From NCBI RefSeq assembly GCF_000313135.1, contig NW_004457490.1:43323-60381 (forward strand): 17,059 nt of DNA, given 5' to 3'. The notes below the pieces were generated by a model, which did no database searches, was not told where the DNA came from, and saw only the letters and a list, made by a program, of their open reading frames with translations. Positions 1,221 to 16,642 of the stretch are shown here, one piece after another. A program made the position numbers and the translations under genes. The stretch comes from Acanthamoeba castellanii str. Neff. Taxonomy: Eukaryota; Discosea; Longamoebia; Acanthamoebidae. Every line of letters begins with the position of its first letter. Positions within the stretch are counted from its first letter, which is position 1.

Positions 1221-4200
1221 CTGTGCGAACAAGGAAAAACAGTTTTCTTTTTACTTTCTTTCACACCACGCAACTACGCTAGCTTCTTGGTCGGGCGAGA
1301 AGGCGGTGGTGCGGCGGGTGCGGTGAGATGGAGCCGCAGCTGCGGATGTCCGCAATAGCTTCGCTTCTTCTTGGAACGGTCCAGGAACTGCTGCGCGCTC
1401 TGGGTCAGGCTCTCCCGCGGCGCCACGATGAACGTGCAGCTTCCGTGCCCCGCTATGCATCAAGCGTAGGTTCACGTGAGTACGTGCGTGTGTGTCGTGT
1501 GTGTCGTGTGTGCCGTGTGTCGTGTGTGTCGTATACCAAGCGCAGAGCATCCAACTTCGAGCGCGCTGAGCTGGGTGACCGGGGCTTTGTCGCCCTGGCT
1601 TGCGCTCAGACACTCGTTGATGAATCCCGTGATGTAGCCCGCGCTCATGACGCACACCGGCGATCGCTTGCTGGTGGCTCTCGTTGACGTCGCCTCGTCA
1701 GCCCGCGACTCTCGCCTCTCGTGCGCGGCGCCTTTCTCCACTTCGCTCGACTCCGCCTCCGTCTGGCGTGTCTCCGACTCCTCGCGCGCCTTCCACGCTT
1801 CGGCCTCCGCGCTGCCCAGGCGTAGGTTTTAGTTGAGTGTTACGCCCACAGCACACACGCGACCGCACACACGACCGCACACGCCGAGTAGGTAAAGTAC
1901 CTGCGGTGGACCACGAGTTTGAGGAAGAAGTTGGACAACTGGTCGGGAGCGGTGCTGATGTGTGCGTGCTTGGCCTGGATGCGCATCGTGCCCCAGCCCA
2001 TGTGCGCCATCAGCGGCGGCAGCGTCAGCAGGCTCTCGAAGAACGACGGCGACGGCGATGACAACGCCGGGTCCGCGGCGTAGTGGCGCTGGTCGGTCTT
2101 GCCCAGGCAACAGCCAAAGTCGAACAGGAAGTTGGCCGCGATGACGTCGGCCTGCGGCTTCTTGACCGGGAGGACCTCGGACAGCAGCTGGAAGAAGCCG
2201 TGCGACACGGCCTCGGCCCGGAGAAACACGTGCCGGCGGCCGCCGATCGACACCGCCCCCTGGCCGGCGTTGAGCTCCTGCCGCCCGAACGCGTGTTCGG
2301 CCAGCAGCTCCCGGATGCGCTTGCCCTCGCTGGCCAGCACCTCTCTGTCCAATCCGGCCGACGTCGCCTCAATGCCCGCACCACGCTGTGCGGACTTCTG
2401 CTGGTCTGCGGCGGTGTCGCTGCCCCGGCGCGGCCTGGCCTCCGCCATTTTGGTTTCAGTGGCAGACGGCGTCGGGGAGATGATCACGCTCGATGACGAC
2501 GCCGAGAGCGAGTTGCGACGCGGGCTCGGTCGCGCTGAACCCGCCGCGCCACCGCGCTCCGCTGCCACGATCGTGCTGCCCTTGGTCGTCGCGCTCCCAA
2601 ATGCCGCCGAGGCCGAGGCCGGGCTGGCCGCAGGCAGCACCGGCGCCGGCGTCGAGTTGGAGCGGGGCGAGGCCATGGGCTGCTGGGTCCCAGTGGACGA
2701 CGATGCCGGCACCGAGAGCGTGGTCGGCGTGCGGCTGCGCCACCGATTGATCAGGCCGCGGACCCCGTTGGGCTTCTCTGATTCTGCGCCATTGGTTCCG
2801 TCGGCCCCTGCGTTGCTGGTGCCCGATTGGCGGGAGGTCGATGGCCGATCGGAGGAGGAGTCGTCGGCTGTTGACACCTGGCTGAGGGCTTTCATGGAGT
2901 CGAGGAAGCGGTGCAGTATCACCCGGCGCCGTCGGTCGGCCGAGTAGTTGTGTTCGGCGCAGAAGCGGTCCAGGTGCACTGCCATTTTGCTCGGGTGGGC
3001 CACAATCACGCGGCACACATCATCCCCTGCGCGCCACACTCATCGATTAGTCGTGCGTCGTGCGTCGTGTGTCGGTCGTTGGTCGTGTCGTGTGTCGTGT
3101 GTCGTGTGTCGTGTGCGGCGCACCTCTGGCACGGCACATGACCTCGGCGGCGACGAGTTCCGAGTGTCCCAGCGCTTCGCACAGCCAGCCGCTGCTGTAG
3201 CCCGAGTTCATGACACAAACCGAGTGGTACGTGCTGCTCTGCTGTTGGTCCTCGTCCGCCGCAGCAAAGTGCGCGTGCGAGTGCGTTTCGAACGAGTTGA
3301 GGTGGTCCAGCTGCAGCGCCACGGTGCTCTCATCGCGCAGCAGCTGGTGGTCGTCGACGTTATTGAGCGCCACCACGGCCCAGCCCGCGTGGGCCATGTG
3401 CGCGGGCGCCGCGGCGAGCGCCTCGAGCCCCGGTGCTAGGTTCATCTTCTTGGCGAACACCCGCGCGTCGGACCTGCCCACGGCGTGGGAGAAGTCAAAC
3501 AGTATGCAGTGCGCCATCTGTTCCCTCTGCTCCTTGCTGAGCGTCACCCCTGGTTGTGTCGTCGACGTGTCATCAGTCTTGAGTCGCGTGTGCGGTGGTG
3601 CGCACCGCCTTTGGGTGTCGTGCGTACCGCTGGCAGTGAATGTTTCGGAGACGGCGTAACAGAATTCGACTGAAAGCGCGGAGGCCCGCAGTAGAAGGTA
3701 TCGCTCGTCGAAGATACTGACCGTGCCGTTCTTGGCGGACTGTGAGCACTCGGCGTAGTGCTGGCCAACAGTTCTCTCGGCGGTGCGGTAGAAGGGCTGG
3801 GCCGCCGCGAAGGGCTGGGGTAGTTGGGGCGGCAGCACGGAGGCGGAGTGCGGTGAGCGCGGCGAGGCGCTGGGCGTGGTCGAGCCCTTGGGGCTCTTCC
3901 GGCCCGAGACCTGGTCAGTCGCCGCCGCCATCGCCGCAGTGAAGTTGAATTTACGCAGCGACGCCCCGAGCATCTTGCGCCCCGACGCGCTCTCCTCGTC
4001 CTTGTTGATGAAGTTGTTGACCGTCTTTGCCTTCTCCTTCTCCGCCTTTTCTTTCTTCTTCTTCGACTTCTTCCTATCTCCGTTGAGCGAGGCGTCATCG
4101 CGGCTGACGCCGCCGGGGTGGTGGCTGTGCAGCCGGTTGACTTCGGAGGGCCGTCGCACGATCGTATCGTCGCGCAGGTTGTTGAGATCGTCGAACGACT

Positions 4201-6527
4201 GGAACAGGCGTGTCTGCGAGTTGGCCAGCGTGCGCGGCTGCAGAGTTGACGTCGAGCCGCTGCTGCCATCGCCCTCCTTCACCAAGTTGCGCCCGCGGCC
4301 GGTCTCCTGGTCGCTCCTGGGCGTGAGCTTGCCATCCGCGTCGCCGCCGTTGTTGTTGGCCTCCTTCTTAGATCGCACCTCCCGGCTGTGTCGCTTCCGC
4401 GAACTCTCCTCGCCACCAATGAAGGACCCGCCGCCCTCGCCGTCGGTAGCATCATCCTTGGGCGCGGTCGTGGTCGTGGCCGCTCTGGGCCGGCCCACCT
4501 GCGACCCCGAGTGCGACAGCGTGTCCGCTGTATCGACATCGGACGCACTGCGATGTGTCGACAGGGCATTAGCGGTGTGGAAGTGAATGGTGAGTGGTGG
4601 GAGCTGTACCTGCGATTGTTACGGCGTGCCCTTAGAGTCCCGTGGCCCATTTCCGAGCCGCTTCCCTTGCGCGATTTGACCTGGCTCGACTCGGTGCTGG
4701 TTTCCTGCGAGGTGGTGTCTTCGCTCGCCGGCTCCACCCACAGGCTGGGCTGCGATTGCAGCGACAGGGCGTACAACTCATCCTGCACACACGACACACG
4801 ACACATGACACACGACGCGTGGGGAGATAAATCGAAAGAAGAAAGTTGAAAAAAATCTGAAGCGGTGGCACCTACCTCGTCATACATGATATCCATGGCG
4901 AGTGACGAGATGTACTGCTTGGCGTCCGGCTGCCCGGTTGAATCCAGTGTGTAGGACACGCTCTGGAAGCTTTTCACCTCGCTCACACGCTCATAGAGCA
5001 AATTTACATACTTGTCGTTGATTGCGCCTGCGCCCAAGGACCAGTCAGCTCTGTGTTGCGTGCGTTTCGGTGGAGAGAAAAATACCGTCTGGCAGGTACT
5101 TCTGGTTGCCGTCATTGATGAAGGTGAAGTCGCGCAGATAGATGCCAAAGTAGGGCAACACGGGCGTCTTCCGCTTCTTGAGTTCGCGCCGGTAGTGCCT
5201 GAAGTTGTGCTGCGGGCTCATCAGCGTGTCGATCTCGCGCCACTGCTCCTTCGCCTTGTCCGACACCCGAGCCCACAGGCCCTTCAGCCGCTGCAGCGAG
5301 TTGTGATTGAGCCCTGTGTGAAACGAGTACGTTTCAGCATCAATGTTAAAGTGGTTAGGCGTGTTGTGTGTGTGTGTGGTGCGTGAGGTGGCGCATTTTT
5401 ATGCATGTGCAGGGTGATACCCGAGACGATCTCCATGAATGTGTTAAAGTTATTGAGAAGCAGGCACTGATTCGCCAGGCGAATGAACTTCTCTAGCACC
5501 TGCACCTGCAACTCGGCCTTTCTGGCCATCAGGATCTCCCGGGCCACCCAGTGTGCCACCTGAAAATTGGATAAAATTGGGGTTTCGGTGAGTCTCGAGC
5601 TTACGTCTATGGGCGTATACCAGGGGCTAATAGTACGCACCATGTTGTACTGTGCAATGAGCGGCTCGAACAGTGAGTCGCCGTCCTGGTTCTTTACGGT
5701 GAGTAAACTGCGGAGGTCCACGTCCCTGAACAACTGAAACTCGACCACCGTGAACTCTCTGTGTTGTTACCACACGTGGTTAGTGGCAACGACACGACCA
5801 ACGACACGTGAGGCAAAAACAAAGTCAGACAGGAACGAACCTGGCGAGCGCGGGCTCGGGAATGTCCAAGAATTCAACGGGCTTCGATGCGGCGTCGTGC
5901 TTGGCGATGGTCTCCCGGAGCGTGTGGCTCATATCATATCGCTGGCTGTTGTGTCGCAGAAAAAGCAGCTTTATCTCGTTCGCCAGGCAATTGCCTCGAA
6001 GCCACTGCAGGATGCTCGTCCGCTGGCGTGCCGTGAAATCGCCTGCGCGTTTGTGCGGTTGCAGTTTGGTGAGCTGGGGCGCACGTTCTGAATTCAGGGA
6101 ACTAGGGACGCACTGCCGTGTGCGCGACACCACGCCGCAATAAAGTTGTTAAGCCGGGCGAGTTCCTCCCCGCCCGTACTATCGCTCTTGGCGGTGAGTT
6201 CTGTATATCTGAAAAGCACACAAAATAGAAGAACGTTGCGCTGCAACCTTAGATTGGGGGAAAAAAGCAGAAAAAAGAACTTGAGCGGTTGTTGTACCGC
6301 TGTGCGCAGAGGTCGAAGAGGGCGGCAGCCGGCGCGCCGGCCGTGTTGAAGCTGGTGAAGAGCGGGAAGGTGAGTAACCACGCTTCGATTTCGGCCTGCG
6401 TGCCCTCATTGAGCACTCGCCGGTAGTATTGTACGAAGGCCGCCTGTTTGGCTGCCTTGTCACCGCATATTCCGCTTCCGTCGCCGCCGGTAGCCACTCC
6501 CGGTTCGAGCGCGTACGCGCTCTCCAT
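1..6527 (-). CDS. RasGEF fused to tandem XylR_N/V4R sensor modules, with ubiquitin-like and TPR-like C-terminus (5'-complete, 3' end outside window)
   Basis: Exons (minus): 6527-6298, 6208-6114, 6042-5841, 5758-5641, 5559-5421, 5313-5086, 5027-4876, 4782-4610, 4547-3628, 3549-3124, 3026-1901, 1811-1537, 1452-1278, 1220-1113, 1034-955, 874-572, 513-378, 279-210, 109-off edge. Phases match at every junction if about 38 nt inside 1377-1340 are removed. The ATG at 6527 lies just before the RasGEF_N domain. Domains in order: RasGEF_N (about residues 28-130), CDC25 catalytic domain (170-402), polar Lys/Ser-rich linker (403-718), XylR_N/V4R copy 1 (719-912), Ser/Ala/Pro linker (913-1147), XylR_N/V4R copy 2 (1148-1385), ubiquitin-like segment (1408-1489), Ser/Thr run, TPR-like helices (1590 on). 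Expected role: GDP/GTP exchange on a Ras-type GTPase, probably tuned by the sensor modules (inference). No stop codon, poly(A) signal or promoter-like gap separates the parts, so one gene is favoured, but transcript evidence is lacking. It diverges from the Frizzled-like gene. Confidence 0.8.
1340..1377 (-). other. Frame disruption or 38-nt mini-intron in gene A
   Basis: The V4R frame runs through QSAQQFLD and would hit TAG near 1276. The next exon at 1220 is in phase only with the frame one base over. Removing 1377-1340 (GTTCCA donor, CCGCAG acceptor) restores the frame, but 38 nt is shorter than every other clear intron here (57 or more). A one-base sequence error or a real frameshift would look the same. 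Confidence 0.5.
1382..2265 (-). other. XylR_N/V4R sensor module, copy 2
   Basis: About residues 1148-1385, also over three exons. It has HVFLRAEAVSHGFFQLL, NFLFDFGCCLGKTDQRHYA, the motif MAHMGW, then VCVMSAGYITGF, LSALEVGCSAL and GSCTFIVAPRESL. It aligns block for block with copy 1 but the two are clearly diverged. Candidate zinc ligands are C1323, E1355, C1358 and C1367. A charged insert of about 45 residues (Arg/Glu-rich) sits between the XylR_N half and the V4R half. The intron at 1536-1453 falls at the same codon position and phase as the one in copy 1. Confidence 0.82.
1484..1533. repeat. GTGTGTCGTGTGTGTCGT repeat in intron 12 of gene A
   Basis: Short tandem GTGT(G)TCGT units on the plus strand; they sit within the intron 1536-1453 next to its donor, in the V4R copy 2 coding region. 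Confidence 0.8.
2975..3727 (-). other. XylR_N/V4R sensor module, copy 1
   Basis: About residues 719-912, spanning three exons. The XylR_N half has YLLLRASALSVEFCYAV, then HCILFDFSHAVGRSDAR and the motif MAHAGW. The V4R half has VCVMNSGYSSGW, then AEVMCRARG joined across an intron to DDVCRVIVAHP. This follows the bacterial order of an R-x-LLR-like start, an FDFG/GR-D block, a Cys-x3-GYxxG block and an E-x2-C-x7-C tail. Candidate zinc ligands are C864, E888, C891 and C899. In bacteria the module binds aromatic effectors and controls an attached output domain; the ligand here is unknown. Confidence 0.82.
3051..3117. repeat. CGTGTGTCGTGTGTCGTGT repeat in intron 10 of gene A
   Basis: About 67 bp of GTCGTGT/TCGTGCG units filling most of the intron 3123-3027, which splits V4R copy 1 between its third and fourth zinc ligands. 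Confidence 0.8.
4740..6450 (-). other. RasGEF_N + RasGEF (CDC25) catalytic module
   Basis: The N-terminal part shows the RasGEF_N pattern EIEAWLLTFPLFTSF, then FIAAWCRAH joined across an intron to SDFTARQRTSILQWL. The catalytic part has EFTVVEFQLFRDVDL, QYNMVAHWVAREIL (joined across the intron at 5640-5560), LLLNNFNTFMEIVSGL followed by NSLQRLKGLW, and VLPYFGIYLRDFTFINDGN. It closes with DELYALSLQSQP, the usual end of the Cdc25 fold. All signature blocks of an active Ras-family exchange factor are present and in order. The substrate (Ras, Rap or Ral type) cannot be told from the sequence. Confidence 0.93.
4787..4819. repeat. ACACGACACACGACAC repeat in intron 7 of gene A
   Basis: Same unit as elsewhere but with CACGACAC on the plus strand, i.e. 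in the opposite orientation relative to transcription from the copies at 1484 and 3051. It lies beside the acceptor of intron 4875-4783. Confidence 0.7.
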
Positions 6528-6986
6528 TCTTACAATCTACTTCTCAAAATGAAAACACACAAGCCGCCTCTGGCTTTGTGGTGTTCTGTTTCTACAGCGA
6601 GTTCCACGTTTACCTCTCTTCTCCTGGCTGCCTCTATTATGGAGGCCTCATGCAATGCGCCTGGCAACGGCTCCCCGACAGGCTGGATCCAGACTGGCTC
6701 TGCTACTTTGCAGCAGTCCCACCACCCTTAGTCGACATTAATGCTCTTTTGAAGGGGGGAGTGCAAGTGTGTTTTCAGAGCGAAGGTGCCTTCGCTGTAC
6801 CGAATTAGGGCGGAACTCGATCGAGTTGCTGCAAGGTAACAACTGGCGGCATACTCGAGGCAGCTACCCAAGACGCAGCCATTTGTATCCCACAGCGGAG
6901 AGGAAAAGAAAGGCTTAACAGAGAAAAGAGAAGGAAAAGTGATTTTATTTGGTATTTTCGCAACATTAGGATATCTTGCGGCTGCG
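6528..6986. promoter_or_regulatory. Divergent spacer between the RasGEF-sensor gene and the Frizzled-like gene
   Basis: 459 bp between two opposed ATG codons, so it should hold both promoters and both 5' untranslated regions. I see no clear TATA box on either side. A purine-rich stretch (6897-6940) followed by an AT-rich stretch (6940-6970) lies just before the plus-strand ATG. A 61-codon plus-strand ORF at 6549-6731 is present but unsupported. No RNA gene is recognisable. Confidence 0.5.
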
Positions 6987-9149
6987 ATGGCTCGTGCGAA
7001 GCCGGCGAAGCGCTGCTCCAGGACTCCTTCGCTTCTGGTTTTGCCCATCATCTTCCTCCTCATCGGCCTCCAGGATATTCATGGAGGAGCCGGTGCCGAG
7101 GAGTTGAGTCTGGGCTCAGAATTCTATCGTCAGTTCGTGGATCTTGATGCTGATCAAAGCATGGTTGCCGCTCGAGCCGTCAACAGTTCTGTCAACGGCG
7201 CCTGCCTTCGGGATAACCTGGCCCCCTCGGTTGACCTCACCATTGGCGGCGCCTCCTCGGGGCCGCGAACGCTCAACCAGTACGACTGCCTGGTCTACGG
7301 CTTCACAGTCCAACTTGACGACCTGGGCGAAGACGACATCGTCTTCACCATCACCTCCCCGTCCTCGCCCACGCCGCGCTACACCACCTGGCGATTTTAC
7401 CGCGAGGAGATCACCCTCGCACGCAACGACAACACCTTTGATCTCACCAGTACCATCTCATCTGCCCTCAATATAGTGATGTTGATCTCTAACAAAAACA
7501 CGGCAGGTGAGGGCTTGAGCTTTTTGATGCCCAACTGCATGGCCAAGCTCACCAGGAGGTGGATCTTCACGCTTACCTCGACCGAGACCTACACCGTGAA
7601 CCTGGCCACTGCCTACGGTACGTGCACAAGGCTGCAAACGGCTTTGGTTTTGGGCTTAAAAGGAGGCATTGCGCAGCGGCACCTGCGGATGAGATCGAGC
7701 TGGACGGGATCTCAGACTTTGTGGGCACGTGGACGACCACCAATGCCTGGCAGGTCTTCAAGTTCAACAGCGACAGCGTGCTGGCCACCCAGAGGTTCGC
7801 CGTTACTGCATTGCTCCGTTGAAATCCTGCCCTGACCCCTCTTCCTGCCATTGCAGCGCGACTCTGAACTTTGCATCGAGTACGTCGGAGATGACCATCT
7901 ACACCCGGATAGGCGCATGCCCCACCATGCACTACACCTACCGATACTCGGGTACGCCGCCGACAGTCACCTTGTCCGCCACAACAGCGTATAACTGATG
8001 TGAGCGTTTGATTTTGACCCACAGTCGTCAAGCCAGACACTACTGAAGGACAGTACGTCCACCAAGCGCCAGTCTCTGTTCGGATTATCATCACCTGAGA
8101 CTTCCATGTGTTGTTGGTCGCGCACAGGAAGAGGTTGGCGGTGAGCAACACGGACAGCGTGGTGTACATGGCTGTGGCGCCTCTGGCCGAAGGGTACTCG
8201 GGCACCGGCGACATCACCCTCGGCTACACTCTGGGTACTTCATCTCCTCCTCTTCCCTGGAATGGCGCTGTAACACTGATTCCTGACCTCAACTGTGCAG
8301 AGCCATCGGTCTGCCGGGAGTTGCCAACATCGCTGCCCTTCTGCTCTCAGGTGTACTGGCCCACGGTGGGCAACGACAGCCAGGCCCACGTGCGCACGCG
8401 AGACGACAGTGCCAAGACGTACATATCTATGTCACTTGCATTGATGCAGTTGCTGTATTTCTGAGGACATCAAAATGCTGTGGCTGCGGCTCAGGTTCTA
8501 CGATGACACCGTGTTGGCCTACCCGAAGGTCAATTCCGACTGCCTGAGGGTCTTCAAGGACTTCATCTGCCTCACCACGGTCGCTCCGCCTTGTCGTGTG
8601 GTACTGTACCCCGCCGTACCTCCTGCACAACTTGAGCTCTTCCGCTAACCAGTGATCATGGGTGATTGTTGATTGCCAACAGGAGAGCAAGAAGGGGATT
8701 CCGTTATGTCAGGACTGGTGCGACATGGTCTACAGCTCGTGCCCCGCCCGATTCGTGAGCCAGGTGCTCCAGGCCGAGCTGCGGGATTGGTGCCTGAGGC
8801 CCGGCGCCGAGATCCGAAACACCGAGGCCCAAAGCAAGATCAAGCCACCCATCAACTGCTTCCACACGCCCATCCCAGACCCCATCGACATCTGGGGTAC
8901 GCCAACGTTGCCTTGCAACGCCCAGTGAAGTGATTGGTGACTTTGTGCGGCGGAATGTGTGCAGATTTTACGGAGAGGCCTATGCGCAACCCGTTGATGT
9001 GGACGCTGGCCGGGTTCGGCGCCTACATGGCGGCGGCGCTGTGTCTGGCGCTGGCCGCCGTGGCCGTCTTCCTCCACATGGAGCGCAAGCGACGGAAGCA
9101 GAAGCGCCTCACGACCGCCCTTCAGCAGCTTGGCCTCGCGCTCGACTGA
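6987..9149 (+). CDS. Single-pass membrane protein with Frizzled-like cysteine-rich domain
   Basis: Exons: 6987-7617, 7677-7794, 7857-7951, 8025-8052, 8128-8234, 8301-8418, 8495-8600, 8683-8896, 8965-9149. All phases close to give 533 residues. The ATG at 6987 begins a signal peptide (basic RAKPAKR, then SLLVLPIIFLLIGL, likely cut after about residue 37). Residues 38-326 form a beta-rich ectodomain of unknown family with N-x-S/T sites. Residues 327-465 carry ten cysteines (331, 341, 382, 391, 399, 410, 414, 421, 438, 460) in the order and spacing of a Frizzled (FZ) domain, with PLCQDWCDMVYSSC matching its second half. A transmembrane helix (about 483-509) is followed by a 24-residue tail rich in Lys/Arg. 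It is not a seven-helix Frizzled receptor: one helix only. Likely a plasma-membrane receptor or adhesion protein; ligand unknown. Confidence 0.85.
8025..8052 (+). other. 28-nt micro-exon of the Frizzled-like gene
   Basis: Flanked by an ACAG acceptor at 8024 and a GTACGT donor at 8053. It adds about nine residues (VVKPDTTEG) and is needed to keep phase 1 to phase 2 between the exons ending at 7951 and starting at 8128. Confidence 0.65.
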
Positions 9150-9301: not shown

Positions 9302-12300
9302 CTAGGCCATGTCGACGACGTAGTTGGCCGGGAAGAGACCTCGTCGCTTTGTTGCAACGAGCTCGCCTTCCCACCAACCCGAATCCGACCTGTGCGTTCG
9401 CGTGTGCGATGTGTGTGCGTGCAGAGTGTGCGGTGCGTGTCAGCGAGGCCACGATGGAGAACAGTCGCAGAGAGACGTTATACCTCTGATGAACGATGAT
9501 GACCTCATCGAAGACTAGGTCCAGTTCGTCGTCACGCTGCGCCTGGTACTCGAAGGCCACTCGTGCGCGACCTCCGCCACCGGCGGCCGGTGACGAAGCC
9601 GCGCCCACGGGCTTTGCGTCGGGTTGGCCGCGCGGCGTGAATAGCGGGTCGCCCGCCGCGTCAGCCACCTCCACATACACGCCCTGCACCAGGCCCACCT
9701 GCCCCTGCCGCTTGGCTGCCCCCGCCCCGCACCACGCGATGAGAACTTCGCACACGCGTGCGTGTGCGTGTCGTGTCGTGTCGTCTCACTTACCGAGGTA
9801 CCACGGCTTCTCGTCGCAGTTCTCGTTCATCTCGACGGTGAGAGTGTCCCCCACGCTGCTCTCCAGCTCGTACTTGAACTTGGGTGCGTACCCATGTACG
9901 ATTCTCGCCTGCGCGCGCGGTGGTGACGTGTCGTGTCAGCACCGATCTACGGTGCGTGGTGGCGGGTGGCTGGAAAAGACCTTCTTTTCGGTGCCCCGCG
10001 GGCACTGGGCGACGATGCGGGCCTTGAGCTGGGTGCTCTCCTGCTCGGCCTGCGCGAGCAGCGCCCGGTACCGCTCGACCTCGGCCTTCTTCACCGCCAG
10101 CTGGTGGTACAGCTCGCACCGGACCAACAGCGGCTCGGGCGGCGGCGGTCCCCCCGAGCTCTTGAACAGCGCGAGCTGTGTGCGACGTGTGCGTGCGGTG
10201 GCGTGAGTGCGTGTGCGGTCTGAGAACTATGTGAGGAATTTTTCGCACCTTGCCTAGACCGCTGCCTTGTTGGATGAGCTTCTTCTCCCGCGGCGAAGGC
10301 GGAGGCGCCCCTCGGGCCGGTGGTGAGGGCAGCGGGGTGCTGCCGACGATCGGCAGGTCCAAGATGGGCGGCGGAATGGCCGCCATCGCCAGCGTCGCCA
10401 TCAGCGGCAGCGGCGACGTCGGTCCAGATGCAGCCGCGGCCGAGGCCGGTGGTGGCAAGGGCAGCGGCGGCAGCGCCGATGGCGCCGACGACGGCGACGG
10501 CGACGACTTGGAGAGCGCGCAGTCCCTGACGGGGCGCCTGGGCCTGCTATTGTTGTGGCTGTTGCTGCCAGTGGTCGTGGTGGTGCTTGCGGTGCTTGCG
10601 GTGACGGCCGTGACGTTGCTGGTTTGCTGTCGCAGGTTGGCGCAGGCCGATGGGGCCACCATCGCACTGTTGGACGAGGCCGACAGCTGGTGGCTGCGCC
10701 CCGCCGCGGGGCTGGTGGTTGTGGTGGCGCTGCGGGCCTCGGCCGCCATGGCGAGCACCGAGGGCGACCCGGGCGCCGAGTGCGTGGAGGGCGACGACAG
10801 GGGGCTGGACTTGAGCGAGGGCGCCGCGGCACCGGAGGCGGGCGCGGAGCGGGCAAGGGGCGACCCCCCGGCGGGGAGCGTGTGCGCGGTGGTGGTGGCA
10901 GTGGGCAAGTCGGGCAACGGGCCGCGGGTGCGGAGCGCGGACTGGAGCTGGGTCGACAGGCCACGCGTGAAGTTAAGATGCGCATCCGTCGGCATCGGCC
11001 CATCTACACAGACGCGCGTCACTTCAGTTAACAACCACCACCACCGCACAGCATCACCGCACACGACACGACACGCACTCAGTTTGTCCTTGATTCCTGC
11101 GCGCTCGATTCGGTCGCGTTCCTTGCCGCTGAAGGATTTCGCCTGCACCGAGGCCAGCATCTTGCTACTGTCGAGCAGCGACGACCGCCGGCTGATGATC
11201 CCGCCGCCGCCGCCGCCAGCAGCCGCAGCGGCGGCCGACTTCTTGTCCTCCCGGTCCTTCTCCTTGCGCTCGCGGCCCTCCTTGCTCTTCTTCTCCTTTT
11301 CCTCGCGGCCCTTCTTCTCCTTCTCCTTCCGCTCCTCGCGGTCCTTCTCCTTCTTCTCCTTCCGCTCGTCCCGGAGGCCCTTCCTCTCCCGGCCCGACGG
11401 CTCGTCGCCCGCCGGGCACTCCTTCGGGGCCAGCAGGTTCGCAATCGCCGCAAAGCCCGACGCCTTGGAGGGGAAAAAAACAATATATAGAAAAAATGTT
11501 AACCACCATCGCACACGCACACCGCACCGCACACACCGCACACAGGAGAGGGGAGGAAGGAACCTTGGCGATGGCAAGGGGCGAGTAGCGCGGGTCGGAG
11601 CACCGGGTGCTGTCCGCGTTGAACTCGTCGACCAGGATCCGCACGATCTCCATGTGTCCCTTCTTCGCCGCAAAGTAGAGCAGCCTGTGCGGTCATCATG
11701 GGACCGCACGCGTGTTCACATGAATCGTGCGTCGTGTGTTGTAAGTGTCGTGTGTGTTGCGTCGTGTCGTGCGTGTGTCGTGTTCATGAATGGCAGACGC
11801 ACGTTCGACCCTTGGCGTCAAAGGTGTTGACGGCAGTCGGCTGCGCTGTCAAAAGCTGCCGGAGCTTGGCCGCGTCGTTCGATTTACAGGCCTGAGCCAC
11901 CGGCATCGATTCTACGTAGATCACGCACCGAGCCAACAAAAAAGATTACAAAAATGTTGTCCATGTTTGTGACAGTATGTGGCATGTGTTGACTGACGTA
12001 TTTCTATATTAATATATATACATATCTACGACGTACCCGCGGTTTTTCTTTTGCTGTCGGTGTAGAGCTTGCTCTGGGCGTCGATGTCCTCGCTCCACTG
12101 GCGCATCTCGTCGACGTCCTTGGCATAGAAGATCACCGTCACCCCCTCCTTCGATCGGATCAGCACCTGCAGATGGAAGTCCGCCAGCGCACTCGCACCG
12201 GGCGAAGTATCTCTGTTCCCAGGTTTCAGCAATTTCTCATTAGCTCTGGCCGTGTGTGTTGTGCGTGTGCGTGTGCGTCTGCGGTGAGACATGCTGCCGT

Positions 12301-14007
12301 TACCCGACGTTGATGATTGTAGGGATGGAGACCGGCCCGACGGAGCGCACGGTGGCTTCGAACAGGCTGATCATGGCCAGGAAGGTGAGCTGCTCGCCGC
12401 GCTCGCCGGCGGCCTCAGCCAGCAGCAGCGCGTCGTTGAACAGGACCACGAGGCACGGGACCTGCTGTCCGCGTATCGTCTTTCGCACCGTCCCCTCCTT
12501 CACAATGATACGACTCGGCTTGACCAGGCTCGCCAACTGTGACCAATGTTCATCAATTAGCCAAAGCACTTTGTGTCGTGTCGTGTCGTTGGTCGTGTCG
12601 TGTCGTGTCGTGTCGTTGGTCGTGTCGTTGGTCGTGTCGTTGGTCGTGTCGTGTCGTGTCGTATGAGTCATGGGCGTGCCTTGTCTTTCTTCTTGGCCAG
12701 TGCATCGCACTGTAGGTTGCAATGCAGCTGCCACAGCCGCTGGCGGTTCTCGAGTCGGCTCTTCGTGTCATTTACATACTGCGCGACTTCGGTGATCACC
12801 TTCTTGGCTTCCTGTAATCAATTGAAAGAAAAACAATGCTGAGCGCCAACAATACCTTACAGGCCGCGGGAAGAGGGAAGTGGGTCCAACATACATTAAG
12901 GTCGGCGAAGTCCACATGCGTGTCGTCCGTGTATTTGATCATCTCCCTCAGTAGCAGCTCATATCGAGGAATTCGTTGCACTGCAACAGTGTTAGGAACA
13001 TGTCAAATATGAATTTCTTATTCTCTACATGTTGATCTACGTACCGGGCAGGATGAGCAGTTGCGACAGGTACCAGTCGCCTCGCACCTCTTCCGTGGGT
13101 CCTTTCCGCGACTGGAAGAAGGGCACAAACTTCTTGTTCTGTTGGAGGCCGCTCAGGAACTTGACGGTCGACTCGTAGTTGTTGACATAGGCCGTGTAGA
13201 CTTTGAGGCAAGGCGCCTGTCGAGTTCGATCTGTTAACACACGACACTCACGACACACAACACGCGCTGATGGCACTACACACGCGACACAAGACACAGG
13301 GAAGAGGTGGTACGATGTTGAGGAGCACATCGCCCACTTTGGAGTTCTCGCTTTGCCAGTCGACAATCCGGGTCTGCAGCTGCATGAGGAGGTCCTCGTG
13401 GAGCTTGCAGATGATATTTACACCGGAGAAGCTCATCGTGAGCTCCTTGCCCGACACGTCCGGGTGTTCCTTCAGCAGCTGGGTCAGCGGGACCAGGTAT
13501 TCCTGATACCACCGCCAAACCCACACAATGTTTACAGATATTTGACAAATGTTAAAGGTCAGTTTGTTGTTTTCTTCCATTATGATATATATTTCGTACA
13601 ACTATATTGATTTACTGGTGTAGGTACTCAGCCAAACTGGAGAGGGGGGACGTACCGTGAGGAGGTATCGCAAGTTGTCGACGTAGGTACGCTCCGTGGA
13701 GTGGAGCTCCTCTGCAATCCTCTTGCGCGTGTTGTGCTTTTGTGCTGGAGGAAGAAAGGGAGTAGAGATTAGCAAGTCCACGTTCGTAGAAGAGGAGGAA
13801 GAGGAAGAAGAGGAACAAGAAAAGACCACACATGGGTCAAGTACCTTCAGGACCGCTGCGGGGGCTGGTCGAAGCTTCTGGTTTGATGTCGCCCGTGGAG
13901 GAACGTACTCCTCCCTCCATACTTCGGGGAGGCGAGACCCCGCCAACGTTGTCGTTGCTTTTGTTGTTGCCGGGGAGACGATGCTCACCCACGCTCGGAC
14001 CCTCCAT
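9302..14007 (-). CDS. RhoGEF (DH-PH) with ankyrin-like repeats and two C-terminal SH3 domains
   Basis: Exons (minus): 14007-13845, 13744-13656, 13502-13314, 13216-13045, 12980-12895, 12811-12680, 12536-12304, 12212-12037, 11911-11803, 11684-11564, 11463-11079, 11003-10249, 10175-9981, 9908-9794, 9715-9484, 9389-9302; 1,079 residues with phase closed. An in-frame TGA at 14016-14014 supports the ATG at 14007. The DH domain (about 59-270) has RKRIAEELHSTERTYVDNL and the signature LPVQRIPRYELLL. The PH domain (about 278-410) ends EMRQWSEDI. Ankyrin-like repeats follow (416-505; GRTLLYFAAKKGHMEIVRIL). Next come a Lys/Glu-rich segment, Ala/Gly runs, a 250-residue Ser/Pro/Thr region and a short coiled coil (about 890-925). 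SH3-1 (936-990) has FKYELESSVGDTLTV and SH3-2 (1023-1079) has GWWEGEL and GLFPANYV. It should activate a Rho/Rac-type GTPase at membrane or cytoskeletal sites. The donor at 9980 (GTCTTT) is weak; 9950 is an in-frame alternative. Confidence 0.88.
11033..11076. repeat. CACCGCACACGACACGACACG repeat in RhoGEF intron 11
   Basis: CACC/CACGACACG units just inside the donor of intron 11078-11004, oriented with CACGAC on the plus strand. Confidence 0.65.
11725..11785. repeat. TCGTGTGTTGTAAGTGTCGTG repeat in RhoGEF intron 9
   Basis: Imperfect GTCGTGTGT units fill the intron 11802-11685 that splits the ankyrin-like region. Confidence 0.7.
12537..12679 (-). other. Probable GC-AG intron between DH and PH coding regions
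   Basis: Exon 6 ends in AAG at 12680 and is followed by GCACGC, with no in-phase GT nearby. The acceptor ...GTCACAG at 12537 opens the PH exon in phase 0. Using the nearest GT (GTGCGA at about 12709) would need a different acceptor inside the PH exon and would remove about ten residues. Most of the 143 nt is a GACACGACACGACCAAC-type repeat. Confidence 0.55.
12571..12663. repeat. TCGTGTCGTGTCGTTGG tandem array in the GC-AG intron
   Basis: The cleanest array in the window: about 93 bp of GTGTC units in which a GTTGGTC variant recurs at intervals, giving a higher-order period of about 15-30 bp. It occupies most of the intron between the DH and PH exons. Confidence 0.85.
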
Positions 14008-14257
14008 CTCGCCTCAAGACGGCGTTCGAGATCTGGTGTGAATACCAAATAAAACAGAAAATGGAAATAGAAATAGAAAAAACATCAAGTCTAAATAAGG
14101 ATAGGCATGTACCAAGAAAGGCATATTGAATCTGGCAGTTTGTCAGCTGGTCGGGAGCCGAAGGCGTTAGCGAGCACACGACACGCACACAACTCGGAAG
14201 CAAACGAAGTCGGAGGAGCGAAAAGAAAGGTTGGATTGTTGAAAGAAGAGAACGCGC
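14008..14257 (-). promoter_or_regulatory. Spacer between RPP40 stop and RhoGEF start
   Basis: 250 bp head-to-tail spacer. The part nearest the RhoGEF ATG is pyrimidine-rich on the coding strand, with repeated TCTATT-type units (about 14045-14100). It should hold the RPP40 3' end and the RhoGEF promoter. A CGTGTCGTGTGC stretch near 14170-14190 resembles the intronic repeats, so a 5'-UTR intron is possible. Confidence 0.4.
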
Positions 14258-16642
14258 TCAAGCTGAATAGGTGTCGTTCTTGCCCGTGGCAACGAACAAC
14301 CAATACTGGTCGTTCGGCAACACCAGAAACGTGTAGTCGTTCTCACCCCCTGGTGGCACGTCGCCAGCTCCATGTTCGTTCCTCCCCCTGCACACAGCAC
14401 AGCACACATGACACACACACACACACACCACACCACACACACAGCACACAGCACACAGCACAACACAGGAGCAAGAAGGATTCAACAAATGGCTAAGACG
14501 GTAGATCGACCAGAGAGGGGTGTACCATGACAACGGAGCATCTTCGAATCCGGTCACCATCACCGCCGCCCAGGGAACAGTTTTGTTCGCCACCTGCACA
14601 CGGTGAGTGCAGGGCATCAGATCCCGCAGTGCTTTCGGCGTGCGTGCGTGCGTGGACTAGTGGCTGTGTCGTCCGTACCAACTTTCGCGCCTTCGTGAGC
14701 AGGTCGTCGATGAACGCACACGGGATGAGGCCGCTCCACTGATAGTGCATGACCTTGGCGGCTCTGTGAAATCGGTCGAGCGACAGGAACGAGTAGGCCT
14801 GCTCCCTCGTCAACGATGATGCCAGTCCCCTGCAGACGGCCACAGGCCAGAGTCACGCACGCTGTGTGGTGAGCCGCGCGTGTCGACTGAAGACAGTATA
14901 CAGTCAAGCCAAGCCGGAGAGCGCACCATGAAGCCTTGATGGCGAAGTGGCCGAGGTACTCGAACATATCGTGCAGGAAGGCGCGGGCCTCGTCGCTTCG
15001 TCTGCGACGGTTTGTTCTTCTTGCCCTTTGGACCCTGCAGCTGCATCTTCTTCATCACCTTCTCGATCTGGTCCATCTCCTTCCGCTTGCTGCCATCCTC
15101 GTCGTCGTCATCACCACTATCCTCGTCGTCGTCGTCAACTTCGATCTTGATCTGCATGACGTCGTCTTTATCGCCCATCTTTCCTTTCGCTTTCTCCTTT
15201 CCTTTCGCCGGCTTGGGCTTGGGCTTGTCGGCCGCCCGCGCCTCCGCAGCCGCACCGGCGGTGAAGAGGTCGGCGAGCAGGGCTTCGTCGATGATCGGCA
15301 CGTTCATGTCCTTCAGCAGCCGGCTGGCCTCCTTGAATGCGAGCGGCTTGGACTTGACCGCTCGGGCAAACTCCATCTTCTTCGTCTTACCGCCTGCAGA
15401 CCGTGACAGTTAGATTATTAATTAATTTCCTAATTTATTCTATATTATTGTTTGTTGTTTATTAATTTGTTAAAAATTATATGAATAATGGTGCTTGCGG
15501 GAGGGCACACGGTACCAACAGACCAGAAGGCCAGCAGTTCAACGTCGCTCAGTCGCCCGGAAAGACACCAACGCACCCTGAGATGGAAGAGCCATTGAGC
15601 TGTCGAACACACGGCACGCAAGCCGCGGTGCAATGGTAGCACGCACCTTTCATAGAATTTCATGCCCGGTACGAAGTTCGGCGCGCAGAGGTCGATGTGA
15701 ATGTCTAAAGAAAGCAGGAAGCGTAAGGTCTTGTGAAGAGGCTGACATACAGCAGAAGAAGAAGAAGAAGAAGAAGTTGCATCAAAGCTGACGTACTGTA
15801 ACGTTTTGTTGTCTTGAACACACTCTTCTTTCCCTCGAGGCCCAGCTGCTCGTAGGTCTCCTTGTCGACCGAGAGCACAAGGGTCGCCTTACCCTCGCCG
15901 CCTACCCGAGAAAGGGAGGAGAGATGGGTCAGCAAACCTTCGGTGGCCACCGAAGAGACACGGTCACTGGGCTTACCTAGCGGCACGATCGCGGCAACGT
16001 TGTGTCGGTCGATGCCCGTGCCCACACTGATCGCCGTGAACTGACCCGTCTTCATGTACCTGCCAATGTTGTTCAACAGCGCGATTGAGATTTTGTTTTC
16101 GTCAGTGACTGGCGGCAAGGAGAAGAAGGAGGGGCAGAGTGGTGCACACCTGGCGATGAAGTTGGGATGAAGAAGGTCCACCAACTGACACCGGAGCAGG
16201 TAGAAGAAGGGATCGTCGCCATCATCCGGTGCGGTGCCGGAGTGCTGACTGTCCCAGTAGCGCGCCTGTGCGCTCCCGGCGTTGAGCCCGGGCGCGAAGG
16301 CGGCGCTGATCTCGGTGAGCGTTGGCTTCTCCTGGCTCGCGTGGGGAACCACCACCGGACATACTACCTCAGCCTGCCCAAGAGATTAAATCGCGTAGAT
16401 GAACATTAGAGATCTATGAATTGAATACAAAGGGCAGTCTGGCAGCGAGCGCAGATGAACGCGAAAGAAGAATGAGCAAGAGGATTTAGGAGGGCGGAAG
16501 ATCCGCAAGATCGAATTCGAACCTTGTAGTTGAACCAATGCGTGTGCACGGTCTGGATGTGTGTTGATCGCGGATGCGCGAAGCTGGACCGCCACACAGT
16601 CAGCCGCGGCCCCTTCATCCGTGGCAATCCGAACGCCTCCAT
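14258..16642 (-). CDS. RPP40: Ribonuclease P/MRP protein subunit Rpp40
   Basis: Exons (minus): 16642-16523, 16373-16150, 16059-15977, 15901-15797, 15704-15647, 15577-15516, 15393-15059, 14988-14927, 14829-14679, 14593-14526, 14387-14258; about 465 residues. Rpp40 is a nuclear/nucleolar protein of the tRNA 5'-processing enzyme RNase P and of RNase MRP. Recognisable blocks in family order: HIQTVHTHWFNYK near the start; LLHPNFIARYMKTG; LVLSVDKETYEQLGLEGK; a short DL block (IHIDLCAPNF) then FYERVRWCLSG; FEYLGHFAI; GLIPCAFIDDLL; and at the end VPWAAVMVTGFEDAPLSW with QYWLF. It exceeds the roughly 360-residue animal protein mainly through a Lys- then Asp/Glu-rich insert (about residues 268-329). 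The intron 15058-14989 (GTGATG donor, purine-rich) is weak: it is needed only because the frame shifts by one there. The ATG at 16642 is 85 bp from the stop of the upstream gene. Confidence 0.87.
14394..14465. repeat. (AC)n-rich repeat in RPP40 intron 10
   Basis: AC/ACAGC units with one ACATGAC break; lies in intron 14525-14388, so the transcript carries a GT-rich run before the final acceptor. Confidence 0.8.
14989..15058 (-). other. Frame change in RPP40: weak 70-nt intron or one-base shift
   Basis: The acidic/Lys-rich frame reads on through PKGKKNKPSQTK, but the following FEYLGHF block is in the frame one base over. A 70-nt intron with GTGATG donor and GACGAG acceptor restores phase exactly. 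It has no pyrimidine tract, so a sequence error or real frameshift is equally possible. Confidence 0.45.

Follow-up and report, generated by a model that had tools for sequence, protein, structure and literature searches.

A Ras exchange factor of Acanthamoeba castellanii with two C-terminal XylR_N/V4R-type units related to prokaryotic sensors

In eukaryotes, the control of Ras is usually described in terms of receptors, adaptors, and second messengers, and to our knowledge few exchange factors are gated directly by a ligand (the ligands being cyclic nucleotides, diacylglycerol or calcium). The gene described here, from Acanthamoeba castellanii str. Neff, encodes a RasGEF followed by two XylR_N/V4R-type units and lies in a stretch of 17,059 nucleotides, hereafter the window (C108:43323-60381 in a genome of 38.4 Mb and 250 contigs). 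In layout it resembles Epac/RAPGEF4 and the Dictyostelium proteins RasGEFT and RasGEFU (GbpC, GbpD), which likewise hold a CDC25 domain and ligand-binding domains in one chain, in RasGEFU also after the RasGEF part (PMC1273635). In its sensor units it resembles the bacterial activator DmpR, in which zinc is held by Cys151, a Glu, Cys177, and Cys185, His100 and Trp128 position phenol, and two sensors form a homodimer by interlocking at their N-terminal parts (PMC7264223; the text of that paper gives Glu172, and the Glu aligned here is the one three residues before Cys177). A V4R-type cavity is described as holding phenols in the case of PoxR and palmitate in that of mouse TRAPPC3 (PMC10933270).

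The gene is a single one on the minus strand, running from the ATG at 6527 to the stop at 1276-1274, with 13 exons, 1432 residues, and no frameshift in the predicted splice model (Table 1). Its 12 introns were placed by hand; all are GT-AG and 45-107 nucleotides long, and two of them (6113-6043 and 4609-4548) were picked among alternatives by size, splice signals, and branch-point-like sequence. The RasGEF domain and the two XylR_N/V4R-type units are encoded in one continuous frame of this model. The PF00617 profile matches residues 174-353 with 161.8 bits (cut-off 23.1, E 2e-47), and the RasGEF part matches 28 PDB sequences, among them RasGRP1, Rap GEF 4 (Epac2), RalGPS1, a CDC25, and Sos. 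The best is 2ije (E 2e-29), named in the PDB as a guanine nucleotide-releasing protein, which we take to be RasGRF1. The first-pass annotation, made from the sequence alone, had proposed a RasGEF and two such units in one protein, and the splice model, the RasGEF match, and a V4R match of 31.1 bits bear this out. The residue ranges that it gave for the units (719-912 and 1148-1385) fit units 1 and 2; its boundary at 1382 dropped the last 108 coding bases, since the gene ends at 1274.

The fusion is real, because the same order of domains recurs twice: a paralog in the same genome has it, and so does a protein translated from a transcript of a second eukaryote. The paralog lies on the minus strand of another contig (C124:773314-767538) and encodes, in a hand splice model of 15 exons and 1337 residues, a RasGEF domain (E 1e-50), unit 1, and unit 2. 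The RasGEF domains of the two proteins are 72% identical, the copies of unit 1 54%, and those of unit 2 51%, but the linkers 26% and 35%. Seven of the 12 window introns match those of the paralog in alignment column and phase, one more is off by one column, and four are without counterpart; an intron at residue 458, between RasGEF and unit 1, is common to both genes. Searching unit 1 of the paralog against 5.8 billion proteins gave 506 matches, the best of which was P0013, a EukProt protein of 1300 residues translated from a Trinity transcript. P0013 carries a RasGEF and two V4R stretches, its relatives include a Polysphondylium RasGEF, and its identity to unit 1 of the paralog is 71%. It is the only protein from outside A. 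castellanii with both domains among the matches listed in three protein searches (12, 506, and 45 matches, with the best 120 of the 506 listed), two of which covered proteins of 787-2506 and 735-2340 residues, so that shorter relatives, including XylR-sized ones, could not appear.

The opposite view would be that of a gene-model or assembly artefact, in which two neighbouring genes or a bacterial contaminant were wrongly joined. It can draw on the fact that the gene is known here from hand splice models, that of the paralog having been drawn with the window model in view, so that the shared introns are not fully independent evidence. Yet introns are predicted inside both sensor units (residues 765, 907, 1282, and 1374), the shared intron at residue 458 sits just between RasGEF and unit 1, and the same order recurs at a second locus on another contig and in P0013. 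On the basis of the paralog, P0013, and the shared introns, we rejected an assembly artefact and see next to no chance for it. Transcripts ending between the two halves, which the first-pass annotation had named as a refutation, are countered in part: the transcript-derived P0013 holds both halves, and the window gene itself is a predicted model.

Then, we assigned the two units to a family. With the V4R profile of Pfam (PF02830) the whole window protein gives 31.1 bits in two stretches, barely above the cut-off of 31; taken singly, unit 1 (22.5 bits) and unit 2 (19 bits, E 0.0015) fall below it. The same profile gives 44.1 bits in the C124 paralog, 40.8 in P0013, and 32.2 and 34.1 in the two parts of a RasGAP gene on contig C60 (see below). 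The XylR_N profile (PF06505) reaches 12.9 bits in the whole window protein and 18.1 in unit 1 taken singly (cut-off 23), and has no match in the paralog or P0013 at E <= 1. Thus, among the profiles proposed in the first-pass annotation, PF00617 and, just over its cut-off, PF02830 were recovered, PF06505 stayed below its cut-off, and PF00618 (RasGEF_N) had no match at E <= 10.

Protein searches linked the two-unit region of the window protein to bacterial sensor proteins at E 1e-37, and unit 1 of the C124 paralog to such proteins at E 1e-64. A profile built from eight unit 1 sequences, the window's included, matches the sensor domains of MopR (E 4e-15), PoxR (6e-7), and DmpR (4e-6). By profile comparison (E 6e-31 against the unit 1 family), unit 2 belongs to the same family; no PDB chain was matched by unit 2, either by sequence or by profile. 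In a partial structure model of unit 1 (residues 766-906), the top structural matches are MopR, DmpR, and PoxR, and a second fold comparison returned V4R and TRAPP chains, plus cellulose-synthase D proteins, YslB, and one photosystem chain. The modelled part has the sensor fold of the XylR_N/V4R module.

The zinc ligand positions Cys-Glu-Cys-Cys are present in the alignment in all eight eukaryotic units (six from the A. castellanii genome and two from P0013), in MopR, in DmpR, and in 81/81 prokaryotic rows, with the caution that all prokaryotic residue counts given here are biased, as the loci were retrieved by two short patterns, one including the first Cys and the other the His discussed below. 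Conservation of all four positions in 8/8 eukaryotic units also speaks for reading the units as redox or metal sensors, whose Cys3-Glu site would lose zinc or form disulfides under oxidants and so tune Ras; in the V4R-domain regulator MsvR, DNA binding is described as redox-sensitive and modulated by cysteines (PMC3729527). In DmpR, however, the matching site does no more than hold zinc close to the pocket for phenol (PMC7264223), and nothing here points to oxidant sensing. We thus hold a redox or metal sensor to be improbable.

The residues that position phenol in DmpR, His100 and Trp128, are found in none of the eight eukaryotic units and in none of the 81 prokaryotic rows. At the His100 position, all 81 prokaryotic rows have Phe and the eukaryotic units have Phe, Met, Ala, Leu or Cys; at the Trp128 position, His occurs in all 81 prokaryotic rows and in the three unit 1 rows linked to a RasGEF, and Asn in unit 1 of the C60 gene. 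The window protein has Met and His at these two positions in unit 1, and Met and Val in unit 2. Because His100 and Trp128 are replaced, the pocket differs from that of the phenol sensors, and the sensing of phenol or another aromatic ligand, put forward in the first-pass annotation, is not supported. Since V4R-type cavities elsewhere bind phenols or palmitate, our guess is that the ligand is probably a small hydrophobic molecule.

The prokaryotic kin of the units were collected by scanning GTDB species genomes, without a limit on protein length. A relative is encoded at 265 prokaryotic loci, and the best 80, which were kept (and which with the bacterial protein P0016 make up the 81 prokaryotic rows), show 44-50% identity to the C124 unit and come from Planctomycetota, Myxococcota, Thermodesulfobacteriota, Acidobacteriota, Bacteroidota, Pseudomonadota, methanogenic archaea, and others. 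Unit 1 of the window protein is 33-44% identical to these 80 loci; it scores 128-166 bits with 81/81 prokaryotic rows, against 46 with MopR and 36 with DmpR. In the 70 frames closed at both ends among the 80, Pfam finds V4R in 70, XylR_N in 53 (E <= 0.001), HATPase_c in 45, HisKA in 41, a response regulator in 24, GGDEF in 9, and LuxR-type GerE in 8; of the 29 Pfam families matched, 25 are listed, none of them a sigma-54 AAA+ family. Similarly, the 119 other proteins among the best 120 of the 506 matches bear, counted by eye, 97 histidine-kinase labels, 16 GGDEF/EAL, 3 STAS, 2 HD, and 1 none. Because of the unit 1 scores and the Pfam content of the 70 frames, the nearest kin by sequence are the sensors of two-component and cyclic-di-GMP proteins and not those of XylR/DmpR, and the first-pass annotation, which named the activators XylR, DmpR, PoxR, and MopR, is to be amended in this point.

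This prokaryotic kinship, clear at the sequence level, bears on a further alternative, in which the units would be placing or scaffold domains of the TRAPPC3/Bet3 kind, holding RasGEF and RasGAP at a membrane through permanent binding of a lipid or acyl chain, or through binding of a partner protein. The identities to the 80 prokaryotic loci make the units kin of bacterial sensors; for TRAPP/Bet3, no family is found in the window protein at E <= 10 in Pfam, leaving a related fold only, and the zinc site kept here is replaced in mouse TRAPPC3 (PMC10933270). We consider a scaffold role rather unlikely, though less so than redox sensing.

The kinship is most simply explained by horizontal transfer from a prokaryote. 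In a tree of 91 rows (the 80 loci kept of the 265, P0016, MopR, DmpR, and the eight eukaryotic units), the eukaryotic rows are long-branched and surrounded by unresolved rows, most of which belong to Myxococcota and Planctomycetota, without a donor lineage being separated. The unit 1 rows fall together with support of 77/56 and the unit 2 rows with 91/93, which lends weak support to a tandem older than the split between the RasGEF and RasGAP carriers. A viral source was also considered and rejected (0/25 pattern matches in viral contigs encode a relative).

The third carrier is the gene at C60:30587 to about 36795, on the plus strand (L021:88-6296), where a RasGAP domain precedes two XylR_N/V4R-type units. 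The first 1047 residues, its N-terminal part (18 exons in a hand splice model, with the end set by hand), comprise the RasGAP domain (PF00616, 68.9 bits, cut-off 28.3, E 7e-19) and unit 1 (34% identity to the C124 unit, E 7e-37). Unit 2 (27% identity, E 9e-20, V4R 34.1 bits) lies in a second part beyond an unspliced stretch, and from order and strand both parts likely belong to one transcript. The RasGAP domain matches neurofibromin at E 1e-16; in the alignment it keeps the motif LRF..PA.VSP and the Arg of TLFRGNSL, in neurofibromin presumably the arginine finger.

Searches of the genome with window unit 1, window unit 2, C60 unit 1, and one bacterial unit, which score exons singly and only for the best candidates, returned no further carrier: only the three genes and a weak match on C161 (E 0.09), dropped as it runs antisense to a serine/arginine-rich frame. 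Within the reach of these searches, the sensor module is confined in this genome to Ras regulators, two activators and one inactivator. The Pfam V4R and XylR_N profiles run directly on the genome gave nothing, and one of these searches was blank in the control genomes as well; this is probably due to the exon-by-exon scoring, as the whole-unit queries did recover the genes. Separately, 134 exon-level RasGEF matches at E <= 0.001 across the genome point to a large RasGEF family.

Taken as a ligand sensor, the C-terminal pair of zinc-bearing, prokaryote-derived XylR_N/V4R units would set the RasGEF activity of the protein, a reading that we favour with some reserve. The kept zinc ligand positions, the RasGEF and RasGAP carriers, the conservation of the units against the divergence of the linkers, and the signalling outputs of the prokaryotic kin all favour it. 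Each unit, or both folded on each other, would close around a small, probably hydrophobic molecule, the two folded units corresponding within one chain to the homodimer that bacterial sensors form, and binding would alter how exposed the RasGEF domain is or where it sits at the membrane. Through the matching RasGAP, the same or a related molecule would also turn Ras off. Candidate ligands would be a metabolite of prey bacteria or of the environment, or a lipid of the host cell; ligand, gating, and direction of control are what we infer. The first-pass annotation is thus partly borne out: its architecture holds, and the RasGAP gene with a like sensor pair lay outside the sequence that it covered. 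More tentatively, and with less confidence than in the sensor role itself, one bacterial module may have been acquired, doubled, and put on two Ras activators and one inactivator, so that one molecule, perhaps from bacterial prey, would set a push-pull on Ras.

Several observations weigh against the pair being a ligand sensor. Unit 2 is the more diverged (45-81 bits with the prokaryotic rows, where unit 1 has 128-166), it has Ile, Val or Leu at the Trp128 position where the family has His, and it may bind nothing; unit 1 could be the better preserved putative binder of the two. The pairing of unit 1 with unit 2 could occur, by analogy with the DmpR dimer. RasGEF_N (PF00618), expected upstream of the catalytic domain and giving no match in the window protein, has none at E <= 1 in the C124 paralog or P0013 either. 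Among the prokaryotic kin, 11/70 complete frames are under 460 residues (shortest 271) and maybe without output. To these is added the dependence on hand splice models.

Table 1. Features of the RasGEF-sensor gene (window positions; residues of the predicted protein)
Feature	Positions	Strand	Details
Whole gene	1274..6527	-	coding exons 6527-6298, 6208-6114, 6042-5841, 5758-5605, 5559-5421, 5313-5086, 5027-4876
Whole gene, further coding exons		-	4782-4610, 4547-3628, 3549-3124, 3026-1901, 1811-1537, 1452-1274
N-terminal region, expected place of RasGEF_N/REM, residues 27-173	5849..6449	-	43% identity with C124 paralog over residues 20-170
RasGEF (CDC25) catalytic domain, residues 174-411	4750..5848	-	PF00617; PDB matches; 72% identity with C124 paralog
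Linker 1, residues 412-714	3779..4749	-	26% identity with C124 paralog
Sensor unit 1 (XylR_N-like + V4R), residues 715-935	2941..3778	-	aligned zinc ligands C876, E900, C903, C911
Linker 2, residues 936-1129	2359..2940	-	35% identity with C124 paralog over 101 alignable residues
Sensor unit 2 (XylR_N-like + V4R), residues 1130-1400	1373..2358	-	aligned zinc ligands C1335, E1367, C1370, C1379

Runs of short ACACGAC/GTCGTGT-type repeats were seen by eye in introns of the gene (~1480-1530, ~3050-3115, and ~4788-4815) and in a neighbour (~12570-12690), and some introns of the C124 paralog look similar. Elsewhere in the window, one or more neighbour genes at 11168-14084 on the minus strand give weak matches, each below its cut-off, to RhoGEF (E 8e-4), PH (0.016), and ankyrin (0.004) and may encode a further GTPase exchange factor next to the RasGEF. 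A Ribonuclease P subunit Rpp40-like stretch (Pfam E 4e-11) occupies 15708-16385 on the minus strand, and a divergent frame at 6986-7835 on the plus strand has its ATG ~460 bases from the RasGEF start and, by eye, a signal-peptide-like opening.

If the sensor reading is true, horizontal transfer would have fed straight into the Ras switch. On the more tentative push-pull reading, an input of bacterial two-component systems would have been wired anew, directly to Ras, and the V4R fold would have been joined to small-GTPase exchange a second time, independently of TRAPP. The protein also offers another natural case in which to ask why folds of the V4R type partner GTPase regulators. The ligand question would be testable with an obvious read-out, nucleotide exchange, and the units could serve as a sensor module to steer Ras in laboratory cells.

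Among known systems, the bacterial PAS/histidine-kinase and GGDEF/EAL sensors (P0016, P0026, and P0062 among them) are alike to unit 1 in length and zinc ligand positions and share with it the motifs DH[PL]xS[FM]E and VC[VI]M[NS][AS]G[YW]SSGW, the best identity being 44% for window unit 1 and 50-51% for the C124 unit. We know of no named system for the XylR_N/V4R sensors of such proteins. Those examined have a single N-terminal unit before a kinase or cyclase, whereas here two units follow a RasGEF or RasGAP. The sigma-54 activators DmpR, MopR, PoxR, and XylR belong to the same sensor family and have the same zinc ligand positions (XylR itself not being among those compared), but window unit 1 is only 25-26% identical to DmpR/MopR, the sensor here is C-terminal and doubled, and His100 and Trp128 of DmpR are replaced. 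Unlike the XylR/DmpR activators, the window protein has no sigma-54 AAA+ or HTH domain at E <= 10 in Pfam.

No RasGEF with V4R or XylR_N was found in full-text literature searches (amoebae and Acanthamoeba included, the papers listed being judged by title and most subscription papers being outside), in agreement with the first-pass annotation, which knew of no described eukaryotic RasGEF of this architecture. V4R is not mentioned in the main text of a survey of 25 Dictyostelium RasGEFs (PMC1273635) or of the Acanthamoeba genome paper (PMC4053784). Epac, RasGEFT, and RasGEFU bear cyclic-nucleotide domains where the window protein has V4R. TRAPP (Bet3/TRAPPC3) likewise ties a V4R-related fold to GTPase exchange; it is a complex for Rab exchange, assembled from separate subunits and known from every sequenced eukaryote, whereas the protein described here unites a Ras exchange factor and a module of bacterial type in a single chain. 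Its parts are known ones, and their combination is new.
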